A stretch of 64,000 bases of DNA from Aquamicrobium sp. LC103 (GTDB lineage: Bacteria; Pseudomonadota; Alphaproteobacteria; Rhizobiales; Rhizobiaceae): NCBI RefSeq assembly GCF_001014615.2, contig NZ_LBCQ02000001.1:1-64000 (forward strand). Direction: 5' to 3'. Shown here piece after piece: positions 3,307 to 47,388 of the stretch; within the stretch, counting starts at the first letter, position 1, and every line of letters begins with the position of its first letter. The notes under the pieces were generated by a model, which had not been told where the DNA came from, did no database searches, and worked only from the letters and a program-made list of their open reading frames with translations. The position numbers and the translations under genes were made by a program.

Positions 3307-3894
3307 ATGACGCCGAAAATCCTCGTCTTCGCGGGATCGACACGCTCGGGCGCCTTCAGCGGCCGCGTCGCCGACGTCGCGCAGAAGGAACTGGCCGTCC
3401 AGGGTGCCGAGGTGACGCGCATCTCGCTCGCCGACTACCCCCTGCCGCTGATGGATCAGGATCTCGAACGCGAGCACGGCGTGCCGGAAAACGGCCTCAA
3501 GCTGGCGCGGCTCTTCGCCGCCCATGACGGCATCTTGATCGCGACGCCGGAATATAACGGCTCGTTTCCGCCGCTCCTCAAGAACGTCATCGACTGGGTG
3601 AGCCGCGTGCGCAAGGACAACGGCAAGCCGCTGCGGCCCTATCCGGGCAGGGCGGTGGCGATCTGCTCCTCCTCGGACGGGCATTTCGCGGGGATCAGGA
3701 GCGCCGCCCATCTGCGCGCGGTGCTGGCCCATATCCAGATGGAGGTGGTCGCGCCGCAATGCTCCATCCCCCATGCCGGCGAGGCATTCGACGAGAACGG
3801 CGATTTCCGCGACGAGGCGCAGCGCCGGCGCATGGCGACGGTCTGCTCGGCGCTGATCGACCGGGCGCGGCAATCTTCGAGAAGCGAGGTGTGA
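3307..3894 (+). CDS. NADPH-dependent FMN reductase family protein
   Basis: A 195-residue flavodoxin-fold reductase. The FMN phosphate loop GSTRSGAFS lies at residues 10-18, and the family signature [18 protein letters not shown] lies near the middle. Members (ChrR, ArsH and azoreductase-like proteins) reduce FMN, quinones or metal ions with NAD(P)H in the cytoplasm. The stop codon is only about 3 bp from the pyrF start, so the two genes are probably co-transcribed. The physiological substrate is unknown. Confidence 0.88.
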
Positions 3895-5592: not shown

Positions 5593-6882
5593 ATGCATTA
5601 TCAGCTATACGAACTGAACCACGCAGCCCTGCAGCCCCTGCGGGCCTATTCGGACGCGGTTCGCCTGTTCTACACCAACCCGCTCAACCCGTTCTCGGCC
5701 ACGCCATGGGGACGCTCGGTCGCCGCCGCGGCGGAGCTCTTCGAGCGCTCGACGCGGCGCTACGGCAAGCCGAGCTTCGACCTGCCGACGACGAAGGTCG
5801 ACTTCAAGACCGTCGACGTCACGGAGAAGACCGTCTGGTCGAAACCGTTCTGCAACCTCATCCATTTCGACCGCGACCTGCCGAGGAGCCGCAAGCCGGA
5901 TCCGAAGCTGCTGATCGTCGCGCCGATGTCCGGCCACTACGCCACGCTTTTGCGCGGCACGGTGGAGGCGATGATGCAGCATGCCGACGTCTACATCACC
6001 GACTGGGTGGACGCGCGCATGGTGCCGCTTTCGGAGGGGCGCTTCGACCTCGACGACTATGTCGACTACGTCATCGAGATGCTGCATGCGCTGGGGCCCG
6101 ACACCCATGTGATGGCGGTGTGCCAGCCTTCCGTGCCCGTGCTGATGGCGGCGGCGGTGATGGAAGCGCGCGGCGACGGCTTCGCGCCGGCGTCGATGAC
6201 GCTGATGGGCGGACCGATCGACACGCGGCGCAACCCGACCGCCGTCAACCTGCTCGCCGAGGAGAAGGGGATAGACTGGTTCCGCGAGAACGTGATCATG
6301 CAGGTGCCGTGGCCCAACCCCGGCTTCATGCGCGACGTCTATCCGGGCTTCCTGCAGCTTTCCGGCTTCATGAGCATGAATCTCGACCGGCATCTCATCG
6401 CCCACAAGGACTTCTTCATGCATCTGGTGAAGGACGACGGCGATTCGGCGGACAAGCACCGCGACTTCTACGACGAATATCTGGCGGTCATGGACCTGAG
6501 CGCGGAATTCTACCTCCAGACGGTGGAAACCGTCTTCGTCCGCCACGACCTGCCGCTGGGGCGGATGATGCATCGGGGCGAAAGGGTCGATCCGGCGGCG
6601 ATACGCAACGTCGCGCTGTTCACCGTCGAGGGCGAGAACGACGACATTTCGGGCGTCGGGCAGACCCGCGCCGCGCACGATCTCTGCGTCAACATCCCCG
6701 AGACGATGCGGGCGCACTACCTGCAGCCGAAGGTCGGACATTACGGGGTCTTCAACGGCTCGCGCTTCCGCGCCGAGATCGTCCCGCGCATCGCCGACTT
6801 CATCGCCAGCCGGACGAGGAAGACGGGCGCGAACGCTGCCGCAAGGCCCAAGCCGCGCCTCGTCAGCTCGAAACGGAGCTAG
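5593..6882 (+). CDS. phaZ: Intracellular polyhydroxyalkanoate depolymerase
   Basis: Mobilises stored poly-3-hydroxybutyrate granules by thiolysis or hydrolysis in the cytoplasm. The 429-residue length fits intracellular PhaZ. The N-terminal MHYQLYELNHAALQPLRAY is diagnostic. The active-site Cys that replaces the usual lipase serine is C177, in VCQPSVPV. Candidate Asp and His partners sit in GENDDISGVGQT and GHYGVFNGSRF near the C-terminus. The gene stands alone with a 143-bp upstream region carrying a PhaR-like site. A Lys/Arg-rich tail of about 25 residues follows the catalytic domain. Confidence 0.93.
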   Translation: MHYQLYELNHAALQPLRAYSDAVRLFYTNPLNPFSATPWGRSVAAAAELFERSTRRYGKPSFDLPTTKVDFKTVDVTEKTVWSKPFCNLIHFDRDLPRSRKPDPKLLIVAPMSGHYATLLRGTVEAMMQHADVYITDWVDARMVPLSEGRFDLDDYVDYVIEMLHALGPDTHVMAVCQPSVPVLMAAAVMEARGDGFAPASMTLMGGPIDTRRNPTAVNLLAEEKGIDWFRENVIMQVPWPNPGFMRDVYPGFLQLSGFMSMNLDRHLIAHKDFFMHLVKDDGDSADKHRDFYDEYLAVMDLSAEFYLQTVETVFVRHDLPLGRMMHRGERVDPAAIRNVALFTVEGENDDISGVGQTRAAHDLCVNIPETMRAHYLQPKVGHYGVFNGSRFRAEIVPRIADFIASRTRKTGANAAARPKPRLVSSKRS

Positions 6883-7055
6883 CTTCGCGCCGGCAGCGGG
6901 CGCCGGCATGGCCGTCCGTTGCCTCAACGACACAGTGGGCCAAGCATAACGTCTTTCCACCAATCTGCTTAGGCCCAACTCATTGACTCCACCGGGAAAT
7001 CATCTTTAACGTTTCGTTAACAAACAAAAGAAACGGTGAATGGGGTTTGGGCGAT

Positions 7056-7679
7056 ATGCTTGCCTTGCGGCGGAGATGGCGGCTGTGGCCGCTTTTTGCG
7101 GGGGGACTGCTCGTTGCGGCGGCGACGGGGACCAGCACGGAAGCCTCTTCGACGAGCGGAATGGTGACGGGCGGGCTCACCTCGCAGCCGATCGGCCATT
7201 ACGAGTTCTGCAAGAAATATCCGGCGGAGTGCTCGATCAGGATGCGCGACCGCGGCCCGATGGCGCTGACCGACCGGCAGTGGAGGCTCGCGCACAGGGT
7301 CAATGCCGAGGTCAACCGGGCCGTCAAGCCGATGAACGACATCGACATATACGGCAAGGAGGAGGTCTGGGCCTATCCCGACAGGGGCGTGGGCGACTGC
7401 GAGGACTACGTGCTCGAAAAGCGCCGCAGGCTCAGCAAGCTCGGCTTCTCCCTTTCCAATCTGCTGATCACGGTGGTGCGCAAGCCCGACGGCGAGGGCC
7501 ATGCGGTGCTGACGCTGCGCACCAATCGCGGCGATCTCGTGCTCGACAATCTCCACGACGAGCTGCGCCCGTGGAACAAGACCGGCTACCGTTTCCTCAA
7601 GCGCCAGGCGAGCGACCATACCGGCCGCTGGGTGAGCCTGCGCGAGGAACAGAACATGCTGGTGGGCGCGGTCCAGTAG
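7056..7679 (+). CDS. Bacterial transglutaminase-like cysteine proteinase (BTLCP)
   Basis: A secreted 207-residue protein of the BTLCP family, common in Rhizobiales. An N-terminal signal segment (about 1-30, WPLFAGGLLVAAATG) is followed by the papain-like triad: Cys115 in VGDCEDY, His149 in EGHAVLT and Asp164 in LVLDN. In other bacteria relatives process surface adhesins or act on peptidoglycan-associated proteins; no partner is visible here. ATG 7056 is preferred over TTG 7047 because the signal peptide follows it directly. It converges on the next gene across a 234-bp region in which no gene is seen. Confidence 0.88.
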   Translation: MLALRRRWRLWPLFAGGLLVAAATGTSTEASSTSGMVTGGLTSQPIGHYEFCKKYPAECSIRMRDRGPMALTDRQWRLAHRVNAEVNRAVKPMNDIDIYGKEEVWAYPDRGVGDCEDYVLEKRRRLSKLGFSLSNLLITVVRKPDGEGHAVLTLRTNRGDLVLDNLHDELRPWNKTGYRFLKRQASDHTGRWVSLREEQNMLVGAVQ

Positions 7680-7913
7680 AGAGTTTCCGACAGGACGGAG
7701 CGAACCGCCCGTCGCGGACGACGACATCGAGCGACCGGAGCGCTCCCGCATCTTTTTGCCGCCCGGGCGTCTCCGAGCCTCATCGCGCAACACCGCGACC
7801 GCTGCGCCGGATTCCCGCGAGAGGCGGGAACCCGGACAGGAAGCCGCGCCGTCTCGCGTCGGCTCGCCGGAAGATAGCGGGATCCTGCCCGGAAATTTCG
7901 AAGGCCTCGCGCC

Positions 7914-34011: not shown

Positions 34012-34088
34012 GCACCCGTAGCTCAGCTGGATAGAGTGCTGCCCTCCGAAGGCAGAGGTCACAGGTTCGAATCCTGTCGGGTGCGCCA
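34012..34088 (+). tRNA. tRNA-Arg (anticodon CCG)
   Basis: A 77-nt cloverleaf: acceptor GCACCCG pairs with CGGGTGC, the anticodon stem CTGCC/GGCAG encloses the loop CTCCGAA (anticodon CCG), and the T arm contains GGTTCGAATCC. The CCA end is encoded (34086-34088). It reads CGG codons. The gene is intact, and sequence character changes immediately 3' of it, which makes it a probable attachment site for the element that follows. Confidence 0.95.
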
Positions 34089-34331
34089 ATTTACTTATAA
34101 ATATCAGAGCGTTATGGCAGGCGAAGATTTGTCGTGCATGCTTTGAGAGCCGGTTGCAACCACATAGCAACCATCTAAGGCGTACAGCTGAGGCACACTG
34201 CGATTTCCGAGACGTCGAGGATGCCAGCGGCATCGGCTTGGAATAACTCCCTTTCACTACCACCGATGCCATTCCCTTCCAACGCATTGGCGTCAGACAA
34301 GCATTTGTCCCATCGCCGATGTTCGAAGGAA

Positions 34332-35567
34332 CTATGCGGAGTATGCTGTACATATCTGATCAGCGACTAACTCGGCCGTCGCGGCCGAGAGTGTCCATCC
34401 GAGATGGCCATGACCGGTGTTGTAGAATACGCCCGGGCGGCGTCCTTTGCCTACCCGCGGCATCATGTTGGGCATCATAGGCCTCAAGCCGGCCCACGGC
34501 ACCACTCGATTGGTGTCGACCTCGGGAAACAGCAAGCGGGTCCAATCGACCAGAGGTCTGATACGGTCATGGCGAATATCGCGGTTCATGCCGTTGAATT
34601 CGGCTGTGCCGGCGACGCGAAAGCGTCCGGCACCGAGACGGCTCGTGACGATCTTGGCCTGGTCGTCGAGCAGGCTTACCCAAGGCGCAGCGTTCTGGCT
34701 ACGCTCGTCATCAAGATGGACCGTGATGGAATAGCCTTTTACTGGATAGACGTTGACGCGGTCGCCAAGCATTGCCGCAAGTTTGCGGCTGGCGGATCCA
34801 GCACATATGACGACGCCATCAGCCCGTATTGTCTTTCGATCGGCCTTGCCGTTCGTTCTGTCCGCCGAATAATGGATATTGTACTCGCTATTGGCAACAA
34901 TCCGGTTGACGTCGGCATCGAGAATGAAGCGCCCACCGTGGCGCATACATGCCTTGGCGAGGCCGAATGTAAATTTGTGAATGTCGCCGGTCGAATCCGA
35001 CGGCGTGTAGAAACCGCCATGGAATTTGCCATGCAGCGTCGGCTCGATTGATGCTATCTCTGCGGCTGTCACCGGTTGGCGGTCGAGGCCGCCTTCGACC
35101 AGCATGGCGTTTACTTCCAATGCATGCAGGAAGCTGCCTTTGTCCCAATAGATGTGCAATATGCCCCGGCGGACATGATCGAAATCGATCTTCTCCCGCT
35201 TAGCGATCGCAAAGAGATGCTGTCGTGCCGCGATCGCCAGCCGCGTCGTCGCCACCGTGTTGTCGTGATAATTCCCGATGTTGGAGACGAACTCGGCAAG
35301 CCAACTGTATTTGTGCCAGCTCACGCCTGGACTTATCAGTAACGGCGCATTGCGCTGCATCATCCACTTGACGCCCTTGAGCACCGTCGACCAATGATTC
35401 CAGACCTCGGCGTTGCTGGCCGAGAGCTGGCCACCATTGGCGAAGGACGTTTCCATCCCCGAATAGCGCTGGCGGTCAAGGACGGTAACGGCGCAGCCGC
35501 GCTGCAGAAGAGCATAGGCTGTGGTGACGCCGGCAATACCGGCGCCGATGATTGCGATGTGAGGCAT
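34332..35567 (-). CDS. FAD-dependent oxidoreductase, D-amino acid dehydrogenase (DadA)-like
   Basis: A 411-residue DAO-family flavoprotein. The dinucleotide-binding start [20 protein letters not shown], the DadA-type [17 protein letters not shown] block and the C-terminal [16 protein letters not shown] are all present. It would oxidise an amino acid to the 2-oxo acid plus ammonia at the membrane or in the cytoplasm. ATG 35567 (GGAG upstream) is used; the open frame above it is the riboswitch leader. Because a tandem glycine riboswitch precedes it, glycine or an N-substituted glycine is a plausible substrate, though that is inference. Confidence 0.88.
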
Positions 35568-35616
35568 TCCATTCTCCGCGAACAAAGTTGGGGCGGGCCG
35601 AAACCGTGGCTGTTCC

Positions 35617-35822
35617 CCAATCTGTCGCTGTACCTGAGAGCTTAACCGCACCGAACGGACTGCTGGCCCGGACGATGCGGCTTTCCCCTTCGGTGGACGC
35701 TCGCGGCGTCTCTCTCCAGATCGTTCAACTGCATGGTCACTTTGCCTGAGAGTTTCCTGGGGAGTTGCTCCGTCGGCGTCGACTCCATCATCTTTTCGAT
35801 GACGGCCGATCTCTCCCATGCA
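35617..35822 (-). promoter_or_regulatory. Tandem glycine riboswitch
   Basis: Two glycine aptamers lie in tandem on the minus strand. The 5' one (35729-35822) has GGGAGAGATCGG, then GACGCCGACGGAGCAACTCC and AACTCTCAGGCAAA. The 3' one (about 35617-35722) has TCTGGAGAGAGACGCC, CACCGAAGGGGAAAGCC and GCTCTCAGGTACAGCGACAGA, the core conserved bases of the class. The linker is only a few bases. A possible expression-platform hairpin (TTGGGG...CCCCAA, 35588-35620) overlaps the end of aptamer 2, about 20 bp before the DadA-like ATG. Glycine binding would switch expression of that gene, usually on. Confidence 0.92.
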
Positions 35823-35868
35823 GCCTTTTGAACGCTTTCTCTGCTGTATCTGCCCTAGCCACCATTGG

Positions 35869-36897
35869 CTAGGTATTCCAATCGAGGACGATCTTTCCGC
35901 TATTGCCGCTCATCATGGTTTCGAATCCGGCCTGGTAGTCAGTGACGGGAAGTCGATGGGTGATCACCTTACGGATATCCAGGCCGCTTTGCAGCATGGC
36001 GAGCATCTTGTGCCAAGTCTCAAACATTTCCCGACCATAGATTCCCTTGACCGTCAGCATCTTAAATACGACCTTTGTCCAGTCGACGGTGGTAGGACGT
36101 GCCGGAAGGCCTAGCATCGCAATCTTCCCGCCCATGACGAGGTTGTCCACCATTTGATCGAAAGCGGAGGGCGCGCCGCTCATCTCCAAACCGACGTCGA
36201 ATCCCTCCTTCATGCCGAGCCGCGACTTCACTGAAGCAAGCTGCTCCTTCGAGACATCTACGGCGATGACGTCGGTCACTGCTTCAGCCAAGGCAAGCCG
36301 AAAGGGATTCACATCGGTGATCACGACATGGCGGGCACCAACGTGACGGGCGACTGCCGCGCTCATGATGCCGATCGGGCCCGCGCCGGTGATCAGCACG
36401 TCCTCGCCCACGAGGTCGAAGGACAGTGCGGTATGGACAGCGTTTCCGAGTGGATCGAGAATCGCGCCCAACTCGTCGTCTATGTCATCAGGCAGCGGCA
36501 CCACGTTGAATGCCGGCAGACGAAGATACTCGGCGAAGGCACCCGGGATGTTAATCCCTATGCCCTTGGTCTCTGGGTCTAGGTGAAAGCGACCGCCACG
36601 GGCAGCGCGGCTGGTCATCCCGATGACATGGCCTTCGCCCGAAACACGTTGGCCGACATGAAGCCAACGCACATTTGAACCCGTTTCGACGATCTCTCCG
36701 GCATATTCGTGACCAACCACCATTGGCACCGGGATCGTTCGCCTGGCCCAGTCATCCCAAGCATAGATGTGAATGTCGGTGCCGCAGATCCCGGTCTTAT
36801 TGATCTTGATCAGCACGTCTTCGGCGCCGATAGCCGGGATTGGCTGGTCGTCCAACCAAAGGCCGGGTTCGGACCTTGCCTTCATCAGGGTTCGCAT
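35869..36897 (-). CDS. tdh: L-threonine 3-dehydrogenase-like, structural zinc cysteines missing
   Basis: Oxidises L-threonine to 2-amino-3-ketobutyrate with NAD+. The 342-residue protein matches E. coli Tdh (341) residue for residue in register: catalytic zinc C38, H63 and E64 are kept, as are the NAD loop GAGPIGIM and the late block [13 protein letters not shown]. However, the four cysteines of the structural zinc lobe (C93, C96, C99, C107 in E. coli) are G, S, A and D here, in an otherwise alignable segment. ATG 36897 has AGAGG at 7-bp spacing and gives the family length. Kbl is directly upstream. Confidence 0.9.
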
Positions 36898-36917
36898 CAG
36901 CATACCTCTCGCAATCA

Positions 36918-38123
36918 TCAAATTAGACCAAGCGTGACGCCGGCATCCTTGAAAGCATCAATGGCGAAATCGATGTCCGTCTCCGTCAACGCGGCGGACA
37001 TCTGGGTGCGGATGCGAGCCCGTCCCTTCGGCACGACGGGGTAGAAAAAGCCAGCAACATAAACGCCGCGCTCGTCGAGTGCGGCCGCCATCTTCTGTGC
37101 GCATTTCGCGTCGCCGAGCATCACCGGAATAATCGGTGTCTGCCCGGGTAGTAGTTCGAAACCAGCCTTTGCGAGGCCGGCCCGGAAGCGCTCGGCATGC
37201 AAAGCCAATACTCGACGGCGATCATCAGCCTTCTGGGCGATCTCGATAGCCTTGACGGATCCGGCCGCAACCGCAGGTGCAAGGCTATTGGAGAAAAGAT
37301 ACGGCCTCGCCCGCTGTCGCAGTAAGTCGATGACGGACTGAGACGCGGCGACGAAACCTCCCATCGCCCCGCCAAGGCTCTTGCCCAGTGTACCAGTCAC
37401 GATATCGACGCGCTGTCCGACGCCAGTCAGCGTCGGCGTCCCTTGGCCTCTTTCGCCCAGATGACCCGTGGCATGGCAATCATCGACCATGACCACCGCG
37501 CTGTAGCGGTCGGCGAGGTCGCAGATAGCAACAAGGTTCGCCACGTAGCCGTCCATGGAAAACACGCCGTCTGTGGCTATCATCTTTACGCGTGCCCCTG
37601 CCGCATCGGCTTCCTTCAGCCGATCCTCCAGTTCGTTCATATCGCCATTAGCGAAGCGATAGCGCCTTGCCTTACAAAGCCTGGCGCCGTCGATGATCGA
37701 CGCATGGTTGAGTGAATCCGAGATGATGGCATCTTCCTCCCCGAGCAAGGGGTCGAATACGCCGCCATTGGCGTCAAAGCAGGCAGCAAAAAGGATCGCA
37801 TCGTCCTTGCTCAAGTAATGCGCAATCATTCGCTCGAGGTCGCGGTGGAGAGTTTGCGTGCCACAGATGAAACGCACCGACGCCATGCCGAAGCCGAACT
37901 CGTCAAGTGCAGTCTTCGCCGCGGCGACGATTTCGGGGTGGTTTGCCAAGCCCAAATAGTTGTTGGCACATAGATTGATGACTTCGCGTGTTCCCACTGC
38001 CGACACCGTATTGATGCGGCCACCTTGCGGTCCCGAAATCGAGCGCTCTCGCTTGTAGAGACCCTCGCTTTCGATTTCTGAAAGCACTCTGTCAACGTGA
38101 GCAAAAAAAATTGAAGCGGTCAT
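36918..38123 (-). CDS. kbl: Glycine C-acetyltransferase (2-amino-3-ketobutyrate CoA ligase)
   Basis: PLP enzyme that splits 2-amino-3-ketobutyrate with CoA into glycine and acetyl-CoA, the second step after Tdh. The 401-residue sequence is canonical: [12 protein letters not shown], the SVRFICGT block, the cofactor motif [10 protein letters not shown] and the Schiff-base lysine K248 in [14 protein letters not shown]. It is 21 bp from the tdh start, so both enzymes are on one transcript. Unlike its partner, it shows no missing key residue. Confidence 0.96.
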
Positions 38124-38192: not shown

Positions 38193-39110
38193 TCAGCTTC
38201 GACCTTTGAGCCAGATCGGATTTGACCAAGCTTTTCGACCCGATTCGTCGACAACCGTGACTATAAAATAATCGGCATCACCAAGAGCCCGACGATCTAA
38301 TTTGGCTTCAGTTTGACCATAGCCAATTGAACGGCTCGCGAATTTTCCCTGCCAGGAAGCAATAATATTCCAGGCTGGCGAACAGCTTACGACAATTGAA
38401 TCCAGCCCAACATCGATGTGATGGATCTCTGGACCTTGGCTCGAGTAATAATGTCCGGCCTTGAGGGCCGCCAGAAGCGCGTCTGGGCAAAGCGTCCTGG
38501 CTTTCACCTGGACCCAGCCGCCGAATGCATCGGGTGTCCTGAAATGGGCGTCATCAGCGGCGAACGCGGTCAGCTTTCGTCCGCGCGCCAGAAGAATATC
38601 CATCAAACTCCAGCTATCGCCCTTGCCGAAGCCGACTTCGCTGGTGTGATTATACACCTCCACGGCGTGCGCAACGTCGATCGTGTCGGCGTCTTCCACC
38701 GTTAACGCATACCATGCCGGATGAGCCAATCCGATGAAGGCGCCAGTCGCGGCCGCGCGACGTGCCAATTCGGGACCAGTCTCGTTCTTATCCGGAGGAG
38801 CGAAATCGAGCGGCAAGCCAACAGCGAGCAGATGCCAGACCTCCCAGAACTTTGTCTGCGGCGCATGCAGTTCGGCACCGATAAGTGTTGTGAAGTCGGG
38901 AGTTCTAACGTCGCGCGTATCGGTAATCGGCCAGCCATGACGTTCCCAAAAATGATCGCTGGCGACCACGAAGTGGTAGCCCTCGCTGCGATAGGCGTCC
39001 GCCAACTCTGCCGGCGACAAAGTCCCGTCGGACATTGTGGTGTGCGTATGAAGGTTCCCGCGATAGAAACGGCCTGGAAGGTCAAACACAGTGGAAATCG
39101 AATTCGACAT
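38193..39110 (-). CDS. PHP-domain metal-dependent phosphoesterase-like protein
   Basis: A 305-residue PHP protein. Metal ligands are visible as the HTHTTMSDG motif near residue 22, DHFWERH, the glutamate in LIGAELHAPQ, AHPAWY and AADDAHF. PHP proteins hydrolyse phosphoesters, such as nucleotides or histidinol phosphate. The substrate is unknown, and the C-terminal 70 residues form an extra beta-rich domain. It lies 18 bp after the last permease gene and before kbl on the same strand, so it joins the importer and the threonine genes in one series. Confidence 0.85.
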   Translation of the reverse strand: MSNSISTVFDLPGRFYRGNLHTHTTMSDGTLSPAELADAYRSEGYHFVVASDHFWERHGWPITDTRDVRTPDFTTLIGAELHAPQTKFWEVWHLLAVGLPLDFAPPDKNETGPELARRAAATGAFIGLAHPAWYALTVEDADTIDVAHAVEVYNHTSEVGFGKGDSWSLMDILLARGRKLTAFAADDAHFRTPDAFGGWVQVKARTLCPDALLAALKAGHYYSSQGPEIHHIDVGLDSIVVSCSPAWNIIASWQGKFASRSIGYGQTEAKLDRRALGDADYFIVTVVDESGRKAWSNPIWLKGRS

Positions 39111-39128
39111 CGAGACGGACTTCGCTTT

Positions 39129-39989
39129 TTAGTTCAGGGTAACGTTAAGCTTGTCGCCGAGTTTATCGCCAAGCATCGAAACGGACAGGCAAGTGAGGAA
39201 GATCGTCAACCCGGGCGCTAGTGCTAGCCACGGTGCCTGGGTCAGCAGATCACGACCGCTTCCGATCATCAGTCCCAGACTGGTCGATGGCGGCTGCACG
39301 CCCAACCCGACAAAACTCAGACCGCTTTCCAGAAGGATCACCGCTGGAAAGCTAAGGGTGATTTGCACGATCAGGATACCGGCCACATTGGGCAGCACAT
39401 GGCGGATGTAGATGCGCCACGGACTCGCGCCCATGATACGCATCGCTGTCACGTAGTCGCTGGAGTTGGCAGAAAGAACTGCTGCACGGATCAAGCGCGC
39501 ATAGGTTTCCCAACTATGGATTCCGACAATGACCATGAATACTATGAATGAATTTCCAAAGATCGCGAGCGCTGCGAGAGCCAAGATGATGAATGGCAAG
39601 GCAGCCTGCATGTCGATCAGCATGATAATTGCGCGATCCATGATGCCCCCGAAATGTGCGGCTACGAAGCCCAGGCTCGTGCCGACTGCCGCCCCAATGA
39701 TCGTTCCTACAAATGCGATGGCGAGGCTGGTCTGAATGGAAAAAAGAAGTCGGGAGAACACATCTCGACCAAGTTGGTCGGTGCCAAGCAGATGGGCTGA
39801 TGGCCCTCCTAGGAAACTCGGGGGCTTTAGCCTTTGAAGCAGATCCTGATCGTTATAGCCGAACGGCGCGATGAACATGGCCAGGATCGCGGCGCTTGTC
39901 ACGAGAGCGAGATATCCCGTGCACAACCAAAATGTGGCTGAACGGCTCCGATAGTCAGGCTTTATTCCGGTGGCTGCCTCAATCCTCAT
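39129..39989 (-). CDS. Peptide-type ABC transporter permease (DppC/OppC)
   Basis: A 286-residue inner-membrane permease of the dipeptide/oligopeptide/nickel family with about six membrane spans. The family blocks LGTDQLGRDVFSRLLFSIQTSLAIA and RIMGASPWRIYIRHVLPN (the EAA loop that contacts the ATPase) are present. ATG 39989 overlaps the stop of the other permease (ATGA), showing coupling. Ligand specificity rests with the binding protein at 42967. Confidence 0.92.
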   Translation of the reverse strand: MRIEAATGIKPDYRSRSATFWLCTGYLALVTSAAILAMFIAPFGYNDQDLLQRLKPPSFLGGPSAHLLGTDQLGRDVFSRLLFSIQTSLAIAFVGTIIGAAVGTSLGFVAAHFGGIMDRAIIMLIDMQAALPFIILALAALAIFGNSFIVFMVIVGIHSWETYARLIRAAVLSANSSDYVTAMRIMGASPWRIYIRHVLPNVAGILIVQITLSFPAVILLESGLSFVGLGVQPPSTSLGLMIGSGRDLLTQAPWLALAPGLTIFLTCLSVSMLGDKLGDKLNVTLN

Positions 39990-40921
39990 TTCTGTCTCCC
40001 GGAGACAACGGAGATGCGGGGGTCGATCCATGTATAAAGCAGGTCGACCACAAGATTTATGCTCACCATGATCGTAGCTACGAACAGCACAATTACTTGG
40101 ACGATCGCCAATTCACGGTTTGCCACGGCTGAAACGGTCAGCCGTCCAATTCCTGGCCACGCAAAAACGGTTTCTGTGATAACTGCACCCCCAATGAGCG
40201 TGCCGAAATTCAAGCCGAGGATGGTAATGATCGGTATCGCCGCATTTGGTAGAGCATGTCGGAACACCCCGTAGTAGTAAGGCAATCCCTTCGCTCGAAC
40301 CGTCACCATATAGGGTTGGCCGAGCGTCTCCAGAACCGAGGCACGAGTAATGCGCGCCAATGGTGTTGAGGCCCAGAGACCGAGGGTCAGTGCGGGCATG
40401 ATCAGGTGCCATATCGTCCCGCTGCCGGAACTGGGCAGCCACCCGAGCTTCACCGTAAACAGAAGGATCAGAAGAATTCCGAAGAAGAAATTTGGAACGG
40501 CATAGCCGAACACGGCGAAAGCAATTACCGCGCGATCTATTGCCGAGTTGCGGTTCAAAGCCGCTACTATGCCTCCGCCAATGCCGCAGATGACTCCGAT
40601 CGCTATAGCAGCCAGTGCCAGCATCGCCGTCGCGGGCACGCGTTCCAACACGACCTGAAGCGCACTGCGACCATCCGAGAACGCCAAGCCGAAATCGCCA
40701 TGAAAAATGCCGACGACGTACTTCACATATTGAACTGCAAGGGGTTGATCTAGCCCCCAGCGCTCACGGTAGAGTTCGACCACTTCCTGGGGCGTCGTGT
40801 CGGGTAGCAGAACTTGAATTGGGTCTCCACTCAGTCTGAGAGCAAAGAACGTCAAAGTGACGATCAGCAAAAGGGTAAGCAATCCGCCCAGAAGGCGGCT
40901 CAGGACATATCGCAGGTTCAT
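39986..40921 (-). CDS. Peptide-type ABC transporter permease (DppB/OppB)
   Basis: A 311-residue permease starting MNLRYVLSRLLGGLLTLLLIVTLTFF, the standard DppB N-terminus. It has six membrane segments, the large periplasmic loop before RSALQVVLERVPATAMLALAA, and the EAA loop VRAKGLPYYYGVFRHALPNA. It pairs with the DppC-like permease in the membrane. The ATG overlaps the stop of the OppF ATPase gene, so this operon is translated as a coupled unit. Confidence 0.93.
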   Translation of the reverse strand: MNLRYVLSRLLGGLLTLLLIVTLTFFALRLSGDPIQVLLPDTTPQEVVELYRERWGLDQPLAVQYVKYVVGIFHGDFGLAFSDGRSALQVVLERVPATAMLALAAIAIGVICGIGGGIVAALNRNSAIDRAVIAFAVFGYAVPNFFFGILLILLFTVKLGWLPSSGSGTIWHLIMPALTLGLWASTPLARITRASVLETLGQPYMVTVRAKGLPYYYGVFRHALPNAAIPIITILGLNFGTLIGGAVITETVFAWPGIGRLTVSAVANRELAIVQVIVLFVATIMVSINLVVDLLYTWIDPRISVVSGRQK

Positions 40922-41922
40922 AGCGCTGCCCGTTCCAGAGATGGTGCAAAAGGATCGATGTGACACCCGATCTGGTGTGTAGCGTCGATGCTCGAAAGTA
41001 GCGGGGCCGCACCTGCGCAAACCTCTTCCATATAGGTGCAGCGATCGGCGAACGGACATCTTTCGGCAGACAACTTTCGGTCGATCACAGGGGGCAGAGG
41101 AGCGAACGGGACATCCGGATCGGGGTGTGGAATCGCTTCGATCAAGGTCCGGGTGAACGGATGACGTGGCTCGCGGAAGAGTTCATCCGCCGGCGCCAAC
41201 TCCACGATTCGGCCGCCGAGCATAACGGCAACCCTGTCACACAATTGGCGAACCACCGCGAGATCATGCGAGATGAACAAATAGCTCAGCCCCATGGATC
41301 GCTTGAGATGTTTCAACAGGTTGATGACCTGCGCCTTGACCGAGACATCCAGGGCGGAAACGGCCTCATCCAGGACGATCAGCTCGGGACTGGTAACGAT
41401 GGCCCTCGCAATCGCGGCGCGCTGCTGCTGCCCTCCGCTGAGTTGATGGGGATACCGCATGACCATTTCGTCGGCCAAGCCGACTTTCAGCAGTGCTTCC
41501 CTGGCGAGGTTCTCGCGGCCCGCAGGGTCTCCGATCCCATGGACGATCAGCCCCTCTTTTACCTGCGTCAGGATACGCATCCGCGGATTGAGTGCACTCG
41601 CGGGGTTCTGGAACACAATCTGTATTCGCCGCCTCGACGCCCGTCGCGCACTGCTCTTCAGATGCGTTATGTCCTGCCCATCGAAAAAGATTCGCCCCCG
41701 TGATGGCTCGCGTACTCCGGTGACCAAGCTGGCCAAGGTCGACTTACCGCATCCACTTTCGCCGACGATCCCGAGGATTTCGCCTCGTTGAAGCGTCAGG
41801 CTTTCTTGGTGGACGGCGCGCAAGATCGATGATTTGCCTGACCAGATTCCAGCTGACAGAACGAAATCCCTGCCCACATTCTCAAGCTGAAGCAAAGGAA
41901 AGTTCATCTTCACCACGGTCAT
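40918..41922 (-). CDS. Peptide-type ABC transporter ATPase (OppF/DppF)
   Basis: A 334-residue ATPase with Walker A GESGCGKST, signature LSGGQQQR, Walker B ELIVLDEAVSALD and H-loop LFISHDLAVV. The C-terminal oligopeptide-transport extension has the Cys-containing CPFADRCTYMEEVC motif typical of OppF/DppF, some of which carry an iron-sulfur cluster. It energises the two permeases downstream. Start and stop overlap the neighbours by ATGA. Confidence 0.94.
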   Translation of the reverse strand: MTVVKMNFPLLQLENVGRDFVLSAGIWSGKSSILRAVHQESLTLQRGEILGIVGESGCGKSTLASLVTGVREPSRGRIFFDGQDITHLKSSARRASRRRIQIVFQNPASALNPRMRILTQVKEGLIVHGIGDPAGRENLAREALLKVGLADEMVMRYPHQLSGGQQQRAAIARAIVTSPELIVLDEAVSALDVSVKAQVINLLKHLKRSMGLSYLFISHDLAVVRQLCDRVAVMLGGRIVELAPADELFREPRHPFTRTLIEAIPHPDPDVPFAPLPPVIDRKLSAERCPFADRCTYMEEVCAGAAPLLSSIDATHQIGCHIDPFAPSLERAAL

Positions 41923-42914
41923 TGCAAAGGCACTGGATTAAAACACGCATTCAATCTCCTTCCATCGGTCAATGTCAGCGGGGGCAACGTGGCTTCACAC
42001 TCGTCGCGGCGGCGCGGGCATCGCGGAGCAAAGGCGCACCCCCGGATTAGCTCGATGGCGCTTGGAACGACCCCTTCGATCGTTGGCATCCATTCGTCGG
42101 TAAAGTCGATTCTGGGTATCGCGCGAAGCAGACCCTGCGTGTAGGGGTGGCGCGGCCTGTGGTAGATGTCCCGAACAGGCCCGCGCTCGACAATTCGGCC
42201 GCTGTACATGACCGCCACCTCGTCCGATATTCTTGAAATGACCCCGAAGTCATGGCTGATCAGTATGATCGCGATACCGAGTTCCTTCCTGAGGGACGTG
42301 AGCAGCTGCAGGATTTCTGCCTGGACGCTCACATCCAAAGCCGTCGTAGGTTCATCTGCGATGAGAAGTTTCGGCCGGGTCGCTATTCCGGCGGCGATCA
42401 CCACACGCTGACGCATGCCGCCCGACAACTCGTGCGGAAAGGACCTCAAACGGGCTCTGCTTGAAGGAATGCGGACCTGATCGAGCAAGCGTACGGCCTC
42501 GTTTTCGGCCGCCGCGCCACTCATCCCCAACTTGCGGACGAGCACCTCCGTGATCTGCATGCCTATTGTCAGAACAGGATTGAGTGCGGTCATCGGATCC
42601 TGAAAGATCATCGCGATCTCCCGCCCGCGAATTTCGTTGAACTGCGTCTCGGTCAAATCCAGTAGGTTCCTGCCGCCAAACATGACCTGACCGAAAACCT
42701 TTGCTGACTTCGGAAGCAGGCCTAGAAGCACCCGACCCGTCATGCTTTTCCCGCAACCGCTCTCTCCAACGAGGCCGAGTGTTGAATGCTGATCGAGAGA
42801 GATGTCGACGCCCCGAACCGCATATGCCCAGCTATTGCCCGCAGGTAGGACAACCTGCAGGCCACGAACGCTCAACATCGGGTCGTGACCATTCTGTCCG
42901 GTTTTGGTTGCCAT
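41919..42914 (-). CDS. Peptide-type ABC transporter ATPase (OppD/DppD)
   Basis: A 331-residue ATPase, the partner of OppF. Walker A is GESGCGKSMT, the signature is LSGGMRQR, Walker B is KLLIADEPTTALD, and the C-terminal extension has CAFAPRCPRRRDECE. ATG 42914 is used because the N-terminal MATKTGQNGHDPMLSVRGLQV leads straight into the ABC fold. It starts 53 bp downstream of the binding-protein gene. Confidence 0.94.
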   Translation of the reverse strand: MATKTGQNGHDPMLSVRGLQVVLPAGNSWAYAVRGVDISLDQHSTLGLVGESGCGKSMTGRVLLGLLPKSAKVFGQVMFGGRNLLDLTETQFNEIRGREIAMIFQDPMTALNPVLTIGMQITEVLVRKLGMSGAAAENEAVRLLDQVRIPSSRARLRSFPHELSGGMRQRVVIAAGIATRPKLLIADEPTTALDVSVQAEILQLLTSLRKELGIAIILISHDFGVISRISDEVAVMYSGRIVERGPVRDIYHRPRHPYTQGLLRAIPRIDFTDEWMPTIEGVVPSAIELIRGCAFAPRCPRRRDECEATLPPLTLTDGRRLNACFNPVPLQ

Positions 42915-42966
42915 TCTTGTGATCCAGTCGTTCCGGCGACGGCAGGGCGTCGGCGGAACCAAGACT

Positions 42967-44541
42967 TTAATTTGCGAAAGATAGGTTGTCGGGTCGGAAG
43001 TCCAGCCAGTATCCCGGATAGGGAGTCCAGTGGATCGCGGATTTCACGCCATAGAACTGCGGCATTAGGTAGATTGCCGTTGCCGGCACCTCGTCCGCCA
43101 GAATGTCGAGAGCTTGTTGATAGAGATCGTACCGCGATTTCGGGTCGGCGCTCGTCTTCAGCTCGTCTATGACTGCGTTGAGATTGTCCGCCGTAACAAA
43201 ACCGTGTCTGGTCTGTGCTGTAGACCCTTTGCCAAACAGTATGTAACCCAATCCTTCAGGGGCTGGCATCAGGAAGTTCGCAGATCCCGTACCGACCGCC
43301 CGCCCGGGGGTGTAGACTTGGGAGAAGCTCTCGACCATTTCCAGTTTGACGTTCAACCCCACATCTTGCCACATCTTTTGAACCACCTGGATCATCTCGT
43401 CGCCAAACGGATAGTATCCGGTGACATTTCTGATCGTGATGATGTCGCCCGTGTACCCAGCCTCCTTAACCAACGCCTTGGCACGCTCGGGATCGTAGCT
43501 GAAGTCCTTGCGATCCGGATTGTAGAGGCTACCGAAAGACGGGATCTGAAAACTGTTCGGGATCGTTGTCTTGCCGGCCCAGAGGCTATCGACAATCAAC
43601 TGGCGATCTATCGCGAGGCTCATCGCCTGTCGCAGGCGCTTGTCGCTGACTACGGACTCATTGCAGACAAACCAGATAAGCTGCAAATTGTCGATTGGAC
43701 CACCGCGGACCGTCAACCCCGGGGCTGCTTCTATGAGCGAAAACTGGTCCGGGGATATCTGTAAGGCGATGTCATATTCGCCGTTGATCAGACCGGCGAC
43801 GCGAGCGGCGAGTTCGGGTACGACGCGATAGGTGATCGAGGAGAAATTCGGCCTTCCGCCCCAGTAGTCGTCATAAGCGTCGAAGAGCAGGGAATCTCCA
43901 TTCTTCCAGTTTACGAACTTCGCAGGCCCAGTCCCAATTGGATGCCTCTTGAACCCGTCAGGGCCGCCTGCGGCGTATGCGCTCTTGCCGATTACGCTGC
44001 CAACAGGGTCGGCCAATCGCAGTTCAAGCACCGGGTCGGCAGCGCGAGACCGTATCCGGACAGTCAACGGGTCGATCACCTCGACAGGCTCGATCTCACC
44101 AAGATAGGTCTTTGCTGAAGGAAACATCGCCTTCTCCCCGAAGAGCCTTTCTTGGGAGAAGGTGAACGCGACATCCTCGGCAGTGAATGGATCGCCATTG
44201 TGGAATCTGACCCCCTCACGCAACGTCAGTTCGACCGTGCGTTCGTCGATGCGCCGCCATTGCGTCGCTAGGCCCGGAACGAGAACGACGCCGCCCTCGG
44301 GATTGGCCTTTTCAGTGAGATAATCACGCCGAATGAGCGTATCAAAGACGGAATAGGTCACCCGCATGTCGAGTGCGAGTGGGTTGTCCGCAGGCTCGAG
44401 TTTTGCAGGTTGGTCATTTACGGCAACCACGAGCGTCGGTCGTTCCGCCCCCTGCGCATTCACCTGCGGGATCCCAGGCAGGACTGCCGTCGCGCTGAAC
44501 AAAGCCGCCAATTGAGTCACGCGTCTTCTGGTAAAGTTCAT
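42967..44541 (-). CDS. ABC transporter substrate-binding protein, family 5
   Basis: A 524-residue SBP_bac_5 receptor for peptides or similar solutes. The N-terminus MNFTRRRVTQLAALFSATAVL contains a twin-arginine-like motif, followed by a signal sequence ending at about VNAQG. The mature part has typical motifs: WRRIDERTVELTLREGVRFHNGD, ALSLDRQL-like MSLAIDRQLIVDSL, and a late YPGYWLDF. It is the first gene of the importer operon and is divergent from the LysR gene across about 490 bp of AT-rich regulatory DNA. Confidence 0.93.
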   Translation of the reverse strand: MNFTRRRVTQLAALFSATAVLPGIPQVNAQGAERPTLVVAVNDQPAKLEPADNPLALDMRVTYSVFDTLIRRDYLTEKANPEGGVVLVPGLATQWRRIDERTVELTLREGVRFHNGDPFTAEDVAFTFSQERLFGEKAMFPSAKTYLGEIEPVEVIDPLTVRIRSRAADPVLELRLADPVGSVIGKSAYAAGGPDGFKRHPIGTGPAKFVNWKNGDSLLFDAYDDYWGGRPNFSSITYRVVPELAARVAGLINGEYDIALQISPDQFSLIEAAPGLTVRGGPIDNLQLIWFVCNESVVSDKRLRQAMSLAIDRQLIVDSLWAGKTTIPNSFQIPSFGSLYNPDRKDFSYDPERAKALVKEAGYTGDIITIRNVTGYYPFGDEMIQVVQKMWQDVGLNVKLEMVESFSQVYTPGRAVGTGSANFLMPAPEGLGYILFGKGSTAQTRHGFVTADNLNAVIDELKTSADPKSRYDLYQQALDILADEVPATAIYLMPQFYGVKSAIHWTPYPGYWLDFRPDNLSFAN

Positions 44542-44824
44542 AAAAGCTCTCCGCTCGCGATCTGGGTGAATGGTCGGAGGCGCATTCAGCGACGATTGGG
44601 CTACCGACGGAAACTCACTCACCAAAACGTTGTTACAATTGTTTCTTCCAAGCACCGCTCACAATCCTCAGATTCCCGCCAACCAAGGCTCGGAAATCGG
44701 AGATTATTCCGTGCGTCACTTTGGCAAATGTCGAAAGAAACAATGCCAAACAAAAACTCCTTATATCTGACGACATCTACCACAGATACGGTACACTCTT
44801 CATGTGAAAGAAAGATGACACCCT

Positions 44825-44962
44825 CTTAGATTATATTGCTTTTGTTTTATGTGCGCTTAGATTATTACTATGGATATACATCCATCACAATAATAGTTCG
44901 CACATAGTGCCGGGTAATTATATACGGCACTATCGAAATGCAGCATTTGGAGATTGCTGCAT
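44825..44962. promoter_or_regulatory. AT-rich divergent promoter region with repeats
   Basis: The 44542-45032 gap contains no gene and is the most AT-rich part of the window. Structures seen: the direct repeat CTTAGATTAT at 44825-44834 and 44856-44865 (31 bp apart, about three helical turns); the perfect 9-bp inverted repeat ATAGTGCCG/CGGCACTAT at 44904-44933; and ATGCAGCA/TGCTGCAT at 44938-44962. They probably serve the divergent promoters of the binding-protein operon and the LysR gene. Which factor binds is unknown. Confidence 0.5.
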
Positions 44963-44994
44963 CCACTGGTGATTGACAATGGAACTCTCGTCGG

Positions 44995-45023
44995 CATATG
45001 CATTCCGAAACGGAATGCATATG
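44995..45023. promoter_or_regulatory. LysR-type operator, 29-bp palindrome before the GcvA-like gene
   Basis: CATATGCATTCCG and CGGAATGCATATG are perfect 13-bp arms around AAA. The inner core GCATTCC-N5-GGAATGC fits the LysR T-N11-A rule (T at 45003, A at 45015). It lies 10 bp before the chosen start of the LysR gene, as expected for autoregulation. The same core recurs at 47222-47240. Confidence 0.7.
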
Positions 45024-45032
45024 GGCCTGCGT

Positions 45033-45986
45033 ATGAGACAACTTCCCCCGTTGAGCGCACTGGTCGCGTTTGAAGTGGCCGCCAGGCACCTCAGCTTTAC
45101 GAAGGCCGCGTCAGATCTCAACATGACGCAAGGCGCCATCAGCAAGCAGATAATCAATCTCGAATATACGCTGGGGGTGAAGCTCTTTCACCGCAAGACG
45201 CGCTCCTTGGAACTGACCGAGGTCGGCGAAGCATTCTGGCCTCAAGTTCGAGAAGCGGTCGAACTCCTAGAAAAGGCGGTAACAAGCCTTAAGCCGGATC
45301 CCGACACTGCATTGCTCGAGGTGCGCGTGCCTCCGACGCTTGCCATGCGCTGGGTCATTCCGCGTCTACAGGCATTCAGGCACCTTCATCCAAAGATCGA
45401 CGTTCGCCTCCGGACGTCGTTGGGCGCCACCCTGGCAGAATTCAATCTCAATAGAGATCAAATCGACATCGCAATCGTCAGACTGAGAAAAGACGGTAGG
45501 GAAGAGGTGCCTCTCGCCGACTTTCTGATGGACGACGACCACGTGGTGGCCTGCAATGCCAACCTCGCAGAGACAATCCAAACGCCGACAGATCTGTCGG
45601 GTCAGACGCTGCTCCACGCCATTACGCGCAGACACGCTTGGAAGGGTTGGCTTGAGGCTGTCGGTGAACGCTCCGTCGACCCCGACCAAGGGCTTCATTT
45701 CGATCACTATCATTTTGCCCTGCAAGCAGCAGCAGACGGTGTTGGGATCGTTGTCGCCCCTTATCCTTTGGTGCAGGCATATATTGCGTCAGGCCAGCTC
45801 GTCGTCCCTTTTGATATAGCCGTTGCCTCCGGCAGCGCGTACTATCTCGTCTACGACAAAAGAAAGGCTAAGGATCGAAATGTCCGCGCCTTTCGCAACT
45901 GGATTGTCGACGCCGCACAATCCATGAAAATACCACATCGCCTAGTGGTGAAGACGGATGAAGGCTCCCTAGAGAGTTTCAAGTAA
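45033..45986 (+). CDS. LysR-family regulator, GcvA-like
   Basis: A 317-residue LTTR. The start MRQLPPLSALVAFEVAARHLSFTKAA is the classic GcvA/AmpR-type N-terminus, with the helix-turn-helix at about 20-45 (DLNMTQGAISKQI). The effector domain includes PTLAMRWVIPRLQAFRHLHP. GcvA-type regulators often control glycine cleavage or amino-acid genes, which fits a locus with kbl, tdh and a glycine riboswitch. ATG 45033 is preferred because it yields the canonical start and leaves the palindrome upstream. The 3' end overlaps the convergent M20 gene by 18 bp. Confidence 0.92.
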   Translation: MRQLPPLSALVAFEVAARHLSFTKAASDLNMTQGAISKQIINLEYTLGVKLFHRKTRSLELTEVGEAFWPQVREAVELLEKAVTSLKPDPDTALLEVRVPPTLAMRWVIPRLQAFRHLHPKIDVRLRTSLGATLAEFNLNRDQIDIAIVRLRKDGREEVPLADFLMDDDHVVACNANLAETIQTPTDLSGQTLLHAITRRHAWKGWLEAVGERSVDPDQGLHFDHYHFALQAAADGVGIVVAPYPLVQAYIASGQLVVPFDIAVASGSAYYLVYDKRKAKDRNVRAFRNWIVDAAQSMKIPHRLVVKTDEGSLESFK

Positions 45987-47105
45987 GCGCTCAAGCAGCA
46001 TCCCCCGCGGCTTTAGCGATGAAATCAGTCCATACTCCTGAGCGGTGTGACCACCACCACCCACAATCCCTAAGCCATCCAACGTCGGAATGCCAAGTGC
46101 AGCCGTGAAATTGGCGTCACTCGCTCCTCCGGCGATCGGCGCTTGCCGGAGCTCGAAGCCAATTTCGGCCGCCAGCGCATGTGCATGACCAAAGAGGGTA
46201 TCAATCGCCTCAGTCCGGGCATATCCAGGACGATTAATCCCCCCAGCTACCGAAATGGATATGCCGGCGTGTTCAGAACGCAACGCCTTTAGCTGTGCCG
46301 CGATTGCTGCACCCTTGGCTGCATCCGCAAAGCGGAGATCAATTGAAAACTCTGCATTTGCCGGAATGACGTTTTCCGCTGACCCTCCGCCAATTGTCCC
46401 AATCGTCAATTTGACTCCTTGGCTATGGTCACTCATTGCATCGATTGCGACGATCTGCCGTGCGGCCTCACTAATTGCACTCTGTCCGCAGTCTTCCCAA
46501 CGCCCCGCATGAGCGGCTGTACCGGTTATGCCCACCTTGAATCGTCCGACACCGCAGCGTGCTGTGACGATGGAGCCATCAGGCCGTGCGGCCTCAGTGA
46601 CAAGCGCAAAGGCCGCCTTGGCAGCTTCCTTTTCAATTACCGGCCGACTGGTCGGGCTGCCAATCTCTTCATCGGACGTGAAGACATATGTAATCGGCCT
46701 CCTTGCGGTTTCTCGTCTCACGACTTCCAACATCGCAGTCAGGCCGAGATAGGCACCGCCTTTCATATCGCTGACGCCAGGACCAAACAGTCTGTCGTCG
46801 CGTTGGACGATAGGCATTGAGGTCCGAACAGAGCCAACTTGATGGACGGTATCGAGGTGTGAAAGGAGCAGAATAGGCGCGTTTCGTGTCTCGTCCTCCG
46901 GCCGGCTGCGGAGGATGACGATATCGCCCGCGCCTGAATGACCAGGCAAGCGCTCAATTGAAATCGAGGTTCCACGGACCTTTTCGACGACTAGGTCCAT
47001 CATTCTGTTTACACCGTCGACTGCTGTTGATGGACTTTCACACTGCAACCAACGGCAAAGCTCGTCGACCGAGGCAGTCTGTCCAATCGGCGTTGAATCT
47101 TTCAT
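45969..47105 (-). CDS. M20 family metallopeptidase (carboxypeptidase G2/ArgE-DapE-like)
   Basis: A 378-residue di-zinc amidohydrolase/peptidase. Metal and catalytic residues are seen in LLLSHLDTVH, GPGVSDMKGG, FTSDEEIGS and the late GGGGHTAQEYG. A dimerisation domain with GTAAHAG sits in the middle. No signal peptide is evident, so it should act in the cytoplasm on imported peptides or N-acylated or N-carbamoyl amino acids. ATG 47105 is the likely start; in-frame ATGs at 47186 and 47225 are alternatives. A LysR-type palindrome lies upstream. Confidence 0.9.
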   Translation of the reverse strand: MKDSTPIGQTASVDELCRWLQCESPSTAVDGVNRMMDLVVEKVRGTSISIERLPGHSGAGDIVILRSRPEDETRNAPILLLSHLDTVHQVGSVRTSMPIVQRDDRLFGPGVSDMKGGAYLGLTAMLEVVRRETARRPITYVFTSDEEIGSPTSRPVIEKEAAKAAFALVTEAARPDGSIVTARCGVGRFKVGITGTAAHAGRWEDCGQSAISEAARQIVAIDAMSDHSQGVKLTIGTIGGGSAENVIPANAEFSIDLRFADAAKGAAIAAQLKALRSEHAGISISVAGGINRPGYARTEAIDTLFGHAHALAAEIGFELRQAPIAGGASDANFTAALGIPTLDGLGIVGGGGHTAQEYGLISSLKPRGMLLERLLETL

Positions 47106-47221
47106 GGCACCCTGAAGTGTCGCTACCCGTTGCTCGTATGTGCAACCGCGAGGTTGAAGGCAAGAAACAATTGGCAATGGCTTCATTGCCGTAAGGAATT
47201 TGCCCCGCTCGATTGACGCAT

Positions 47222-47249
47222 GCATTCCACTGCGGAATGCGGTGCATTC
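47222..47249. promoter_or_regulatory. Second copy of the LysR-type operator
   Basis: GCATTCC-ACTGC-GGAATGC (47222-47240) matches the arms and the 5-bp spacing of the site at 45001-45017. A third half-site, GGT-GCATTC, follows directly (to 47249). It sits between the divergent M20 peptidase and dehydrogenase genes, so both may belong to the regulon of the GcvA-like protein. Confidence 0.65.
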
Positions 47250-47388
47250 GCACTGTTCCGTTGTCACGCTAGCGCCTCAAGTAATATTAAGCTGCGACAG
47301 ATTAGCCGCGTTTCCAGTCGCGGATCGGCATGGCTCATCCGAGTCCCAGTCGCGGCACCTTCTACAGTTAACATGCCCAGGATCGATA

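Follow-up and report, generated by a model that had tools for sequence, protein, structure and literature searches.

Glycine riboswitches paired with a DadA-like flavoenzyme: a candidate glycine-oxidation module in Aquamicrobium sp. LC103 and other proteobacteria

Few riboswitches have been studied as thoroughly as the glycine riboswitch, whose known targets are the genes of the glycine cleavage system (gcv), transporter genes and a few others. Here we analysed the first 64,000 nucleotides of contig NZ_LBCQ02000001.1 of Aquamicrobium sp. LC103 (the window), in which an earlier note had described a two-aptamer glycine riboswitch between the threonine-degrading genes kbl and tdh and a gene for a DadA-like flavin adenine dinucleotide (FAD) oxidoreductase. 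Why should a glycine sensor precede such an enzyme, and what does the enzyme act on? We propose, as the probable answer, a glycine-induced oxidation of glycine to glyoxylate that would serve as an alternative to gcv and may be fed by kbl-tdh in the window.

All parts of the locus lie on the minus strand, in the order kbl (38123-36918), tdh (36921-35869), aptamer 1 (35828-35724), aptamer 2 (35729-35612) and the dadA-like gene (35567-34332), with a gap of 40 nt between the tdh stop codon and aptamer 1. Matches to the Rfam glycine model RF00504 and to protein family models bear out the gene order of the earlier note, as well as its two-aptamer riboswitch. In the checked region 35580-35830 both aptamers matched RF00504 significantly, with 65.7 bits for aptamer 1 and 57.8 bits for aptamer 2 against a gathering cut-off of 32 bits. 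Aptamer 1 was found in the whole-window scan with an E-value of 2e-11. Aptamer 2, which has an enlarged P3 arm, went unreported by cmscan of the window and was recovered by an RF00504 search of the genome itself and by comparative alignment; it scored 29.7 bits with the covariance model R1 described below. Alignment of aptamer 2 with six plasmid relatives revealed a conserved core and a P3 arm of variable length. For aptamer 1, an alignment of 42 sequences, picked for variety and fitted to the model, hence biased towards it, had 96.2% of its cells paired, and two-sided changes numbered 175 versus 44.1 in shuffles. These changes are confined to two of the five helices, the others being invariant or nearly so. 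A chance match was rejected, as the pairing of riboswitch and gene recurs across classes and the stems covary.

A protein search over 84,980 species, with one genome per species, yielded at least 581 confirmed relatives of the flavoenzyme, and the analysis went on with the best 80. Model R1 was built from seven aptamers, six from leaders of the dadA-like gene and one from a tandem beside gcvH/gcvP in the Aquamicrobium genome itself. It placed aptamer 1 upstream of the dadA-like gene in 77 of these 80 loci, and a simple aptamer-2 pattern matched in 70 of the 80 leaders. Two of the three exceptions (L104 and L105) have no aptamer. The third, L045 from Mesorhizobium sp. M7A, carries just one aptamer in front of its dadA at 3616; the beginning resembles aptamer 1 and the end aptamer 2, which reads as if a deletion had fused the tandem into one. 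On plasmids, RF00504 matched at six of six loci (drawn from 775 matching records) and R1 at six of six further loci (five Cupriavidus, one Halomonas), so that the riboswitch is present at all 12. Within the family of the window's host, 24 dadA-like genes (E <= 1e-80) were found in 22 of 101 genomes, and 22 of the 24 genes, all except L031 and L034, have the riboswitch. It was also found at 19 of 19 further family loci and at five of six class-level loci; the exception (L155) is a gene that contains a stop codon. The 80-locus and family sets partly overlap, eight loci of already counted genomes were not rescanned, and L119, the same region as L074, was left out of the riboswitch scan. Judging from these comparisons of sequence, the riboswitch and the DadA-like gene are a widespread conserved module, which is a wider finding than the original observation.

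The genomes of the family also differ in their glycine cleavage genes. Among the 101 genomes, gcvP (PF02347) was above cut-off in 86 and gcvH (PF01597) was found in 85, and all 15 genomes without gcvP also have no gcvH. gcvP is absent from 11 of the 22 carriers of the dadA-like gene versus 4 of the 79 non-carriers (Fisher 3.7e-6). In a sample of 277 family genomes, which overlaps the first and includes all its 22 carriers, gcvP was unmatched in 30 of 59 carriers versus 9 of 218 non-carriers (Fisher 3e-16). The limit for this larger count was strict, with fragmented assemblies scored as unmatched. Of the 39 genomes counted as unmatched, 20 are listed as such and 19 were deduced from their absence in the match table. 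RF00504 was found in 90 of the 101 genomes under stricter filters that lose some weak matches, and most of these genomes show two matches, corresponding to one tandem. Eleven genomes have a riboswitch and no gcvP; each of them is a carrier, and its riboswitch lies at the dadA-like gene. No glycine riboswitch was found in the four genomes that have neither gcvP nor the gene (G001, G005, G044 and G073). In genus g15, of which five members were seen, gcvP was unmatched in one genome only, G563, which is also the sole carrier. Two family genomes show other arrangements: in G012 dadA has no riboswitch and the riboswitch of the genome lies near gcvP, and in G041 gcvP is present, with the only glycine riboswitch found at dadA. 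An rpoB tree covered 93 of the 101 genomes. Of the other eight, which include G039 and G073, six gave no match to rpoB and two, G055 and G086, were excluded as fragments. The label "carrier without gcv" requires six changes on the best tree and no fewer than four on starred branches.

The enzyme itself, a protein of 411 residues encoded at 34332-35567 on the minus strand, contains the PF01266 domain and is proposed to be a glycine dehydrogenase. It scored 711.9 bits against NF009074 (PRK12409, "D-amino acid dehydrogenase", an equivalog model), well above the curated cut-off of 494, and failed the canonical DadA model NF001933 (PRK00711) with 329.7 bits against a cut-off of 383. A structure model with a mean predicted local distance difference test (pLDDT) score of 88 was compared by Foldseek, and the best matches by E-value were glycine oxidases (4ysh and 7cyx; template-modelling (TM) score 0.72). 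An assignment of the substrate from the family models or the fold alone was tried and is not decisive.

Based on these data, we propose the following route. The tandem riboswitch would switch on the flavoenzyme as glycine accumulates. The enzyme would then oxidise glycine to glyoxylate and ammonia, with the respiratory chain taking up the electrons, and the glyoxylate would be condensed with acetyl-CoA to malate by malate synthase G. In this form, riboswitch and enzyme would be a conserved alternative to glycine cleavage by the gcv system, which is itself under riboswitch control. The kbl-tdh pair, which lies just upstream in the window, would be transcribed together with the module and would supply it with both glycine and acetyl-CoA from threonine; this feed is a plausible local addition. 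A bolder version stands at about an even chance: that PRK12409 is a riboswitch-controlled glycine dehydrogenase, a second standard means of glycine disposal in proteobacteria, which replaced gcv several times and which, together with Kbl-Tdh and malate synthase G, forms a self-gated threonine-to-malate route rejoining both halves of threonine.

The genes around the module were compared by tblastn in 86 loci (80 genome and six plasmid loci), with flanks of variable length up to about 8 kb. The malate synthase G gene glcB starts within 250 nt downstream of the dadA-like gene in six of them. The earlier note's idea that the flavoenzyme removes glycine is likely right in view of this linkage and of the carriers without gcv, and the comparative evidence favours glycine as the substrate. 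kbl occurs in the flanks of four loci (two Mesorhizobium, one Bradyrhizobium and one Microvirga), on the opposite strand in three, and no close tdh was found in the flanks of the 86 loci, the single match (L038) having 29% identity. The arrangement had been called unusual. That word fits the kbl-tdh part; the riboswitch before a DadA-like gene proved frequent across proteobacteria. The same scarcity of kbl and tdh favours an alternative that is compatible with our proposal, namely that the module acts on glycine and kbl-tdh is unrelated cargo on the mobile element described below, with no threonine-fed circuit. We regard this as a serious possibility that falls somewhat short of an even chance. 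Against it, kbl-tdh and the riboswitch share one strand in the window across the short gap noted above, and kbl recurs in the four loci just named, one of which, Microvirga VF16 (L074), has kbl, riboswitch, dadA and glcB in this order on one strand (kbl 672.2 bits to NF005394). Representatives of the Bradyrhizobium loci have an M20 hydrolase gene upstream and an Opp-type permease gene downstream, and such genes are also present in the wider window. Taken together, the neighbours would fit a flow from threonine- or peptide-derived glycine to glyoxylate and malate.

How the riboswitch could act was examined in its leader. The likely Shine-Dalgarno sequence GGAG (35574-35577, minus strand) lies 6 nt before the ATG of the dadA-like gene. 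A predicted hairpin that uses the 3' strand of the aptamer 2 P1 helix forms the putative expression platform (35578-35628, minus strand) and ends next to GGAG. Over 81 leaders, the mean probability that GACAG pairs downstream, as in the competing hairpin, is 0.70 versus 0.39 in shuffles; it exceeds 0.5 in 66 leaders, and in 42 no more than 10% of the shuffles are as high. Upon binding of glycine, the 3' strand would be kept in the P1 helix and the competing hairpin would open, so that an ON switch is predicted; this direction is inferred from modelled folds. On modelled binding, the predicted access of the Shine-Dalgarno sequence rises by more than 0.2 in 11 of 54 leaders and falls by more than 0.2 in six. 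A simple switch through masking of the Shine-Dalgarno sequence was rejected, as the competing hairpin is supported but the predicted access change is inconsistent across leaders. The fold of the whole window leader is no stabler than that of shuffles (z 0.09), and a pattern scan of this leader found no terminator-like site.

Several results weigh against glycine-induced glycine oxidation in place of gcv. In the window leader, modelled glycine binding lowers the predicted access of GGAG from 0.51 to 0.19; given this fall and the inconsistency among leaders, control may be translational or transcriptional, and of either direction. The window flavoenzyme fails TIGR02352, the model of the glycine oxidase ThiO, with 130 bits against a cut-off of 250.8. 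ThiO shares its fold and the proposed reaction. The fold search does not discriminate, with a D-arginine dehydrogenase also at TM 0.72 and sarcosine oxidases similar. The losses of gcv are clustered, as seven of the 11 carriers without gcv belong to one clade of ten genera, and seven independent pairs on the rpoB tree gave 3.2 concordant, 0.2 discordant and 3.6 without difference (p 0.25). Across the class (289 genomes) no association was seen, gcvP being unmatched in two of seven carriers (G260 and G362) versus 75 of 282 non-carriers, and a class-wide replacement of gcv by the dadA-like gene was rejected on these counts. The Aquamicrobium genome itself has retained gcvP and gcvH, next to another tandem riboswitch (C32:159458-159649). 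Replacement of gcv within the window's family is well supported by the raw counts and weakly by independent events, and is not supported at class level. On a plasmid of Burkholderia vietnamiensis (L010), the gene under riboswitch control is followed at 6380-7886 by genes for a hypothetical protein and for an alanine racemase, and a role in D-alanine metabolism would fit there. Finally, deletion of dadA6 in engineered C. necator gave no better growth rate or yield, according to the accessible part of PMC11879842.

That racemase, along with the family name and the NF009074 score, speaks for a second alternative, in which D-amino acids such as D-alanine are the true substrates of the enzyme and glycine serves only to signal, for instance, stress on the cell wall or the breakdown of peptides. 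We consider this unlikely, as it leaves aside the excess of genomes without gcv among the family carriers, the glcB genes adjoining the gene, and the four genomes without gcvP and without the gene, which yielded no glycine riboswitch either. Least probable is a glycine derivative (sarcosine or an N-acylglycine-derived compound) as substrate with glycine as the sensed product, which sarcosine oxidases and an iminodiacetate oxidase among the Foldseek matches would allow, but by reasoning, induction of an enzyme by what it makes would serve a cell badly if gcv is lacking, which is the case in about half of the carriers of the larger sample.

Similar to the RF00504 tandem riboswitch of proteobacterial gcvTHP, the riboswitch here has two aptamers with the same core and one gene set below; the controlled gene, however, is a flavoenzyme, which in part of the family is found where gcv is missing. 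A gcvT target is listed for the glycine riboswitch of S. meliloti in the part of PMC2573895 available. In SAR11, a glycine riboswitch precedes the malate synthase gene glcB, as stated in the accessible portions of PMC2211319 and PMC2704228. That system likewise ties glycine sensing to malate synthase, which at our loci lies just below dadA in the six cases above, but in SAR11 glcB itself follows the riboswitch, whereas here the proposed glyoxylate-forming enzyme comes first. For the reaction itself, the DadA6 protein of C. necator is treated as a glycine oxidase in the available text of PMC11879842 and PMC12421819. A DadA-type enzyme has thus been credited with glycine oxidation, and in five of five Cupriavidus loci a riboswitch precedes a member of the PRK12409 family. 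The primers given in the accessible part of PMC11879842 have at least six mismatches in 20 positions to these five loci, which does not settle whether DadA6 belongs to PRK12409, and the only riboswitch named in that part is an engineering tool. ThiO, according to the accessible text of PMC12421819, makes an intermediate for thiamin biosynthesis. The pairing of a glycine riboswitch with DadA was not found in full-text literature searches, which lay mostly outside subscription papers; it may be tabulated in the supplement of PMC3766115, where twelve glycine-metabolism targets are given.

If the proposal is right, the glycine riboswitch would have a further frequent target that is able to stand in for gcv, and the annotation of a large enzyme family would be corrected. 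It would also explain life without the glycine cleavage system in part of the window's family and offer a simple test case of a riboswitch that gates a pathway by the pathway's own intermediate. Engineered strains with the reductive glycine pathway would be concerned as well, since the accessible part of PMC11879842 considers whether DadA6 wastes glycine by oxidising it.

The locus lies on a mobile element, as the earlier note had supposed and as the following features confirm. A tRNA-Arg gene (CCG; 34012-34088, plus strand), identified by ARAGORN and the Rfam tRNA model, would be the insertion target. A k-mer search over 224 kb of contig sequence revealed an exact 46-bp repeat of its 3' end at 34044-34089 (plus strand), the left attachment site, with a second exact copy 62,006 bp away at contig positions 96050-96095. 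In the stretch 94456-96095 of the contig, at the far end of the element, a phage-type integrase gene adjoins the repeat (PF00589 47.6 bits, Arm-DNA-binding domain PF13356 49.1 bits), and genes for a type IV secretion system (T4SS) ATPase, a coupling protein and a relaxase-type protein lie between the repeats. The relaxase-type gene (L282:2224-4233) scored 469.3 bits for DUF3363 and 23.1 bits for the Relaxase domain, whose cut-off is 24.6. Because of the repeats at the tRNA end, the integrase at the far copy and the T4SS genes between them, the region looks like a 62-kb integrative conjugative element inserted in tRNA-Arg. The dadA-like gene would be at one end and is the outermost gene recognised on the tRNA side. 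GC contents of 0.569 and 0.555 in the 6-kb blocks from 36001 and 42001 are below most of the 224 kb examined.

The remaining genes of the locus were assigned by family models. Kbl, a glycine C-acetyltransferase (36918-38123, minus strand), is above cut-off in both of its models (NF005394, 606.3 bits, cut-off 460). Tdh, an L-threonine 3-dehydrogenase (35869-36921, minus strand), passes one of two, with 542 bits for NF003808 (cut-off 380) and 448.2 bits for TIGR00692, just below the cut-off of 458.35. The called tdh start is a TTG that lies within the kbl stop codon; since alignment to the Tdh model sets in only at residue 9, translation may in fact start further in. Elsewhere in the genome, contig C12 carries a further kbl-like gene (60% identity) and contig C3 the single glcB match. 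Upstream of kbl, genes for a CehA/McbA-type hydrolase and an Opp-type ATP-binding cassette (ABC) transporter (38193-44655, minus strand; family matches) provide context only. An Opp-type ABC transporter and an M20 hydrolase occur near riboswitch-dadA both in the window (38193-47267) and in Bradyrhizobium loci such as L059 and L060, and the window M20 protein scored 276.8 against PRK07473, below the cut-off of 386. In addition, a small gene resembling the "heme-binding protein" gene of L005 is found downstream of dadA in ten of the 86 loci (L005, L006, L007, L008, L035, L037, L038, L039, L044 and L045).

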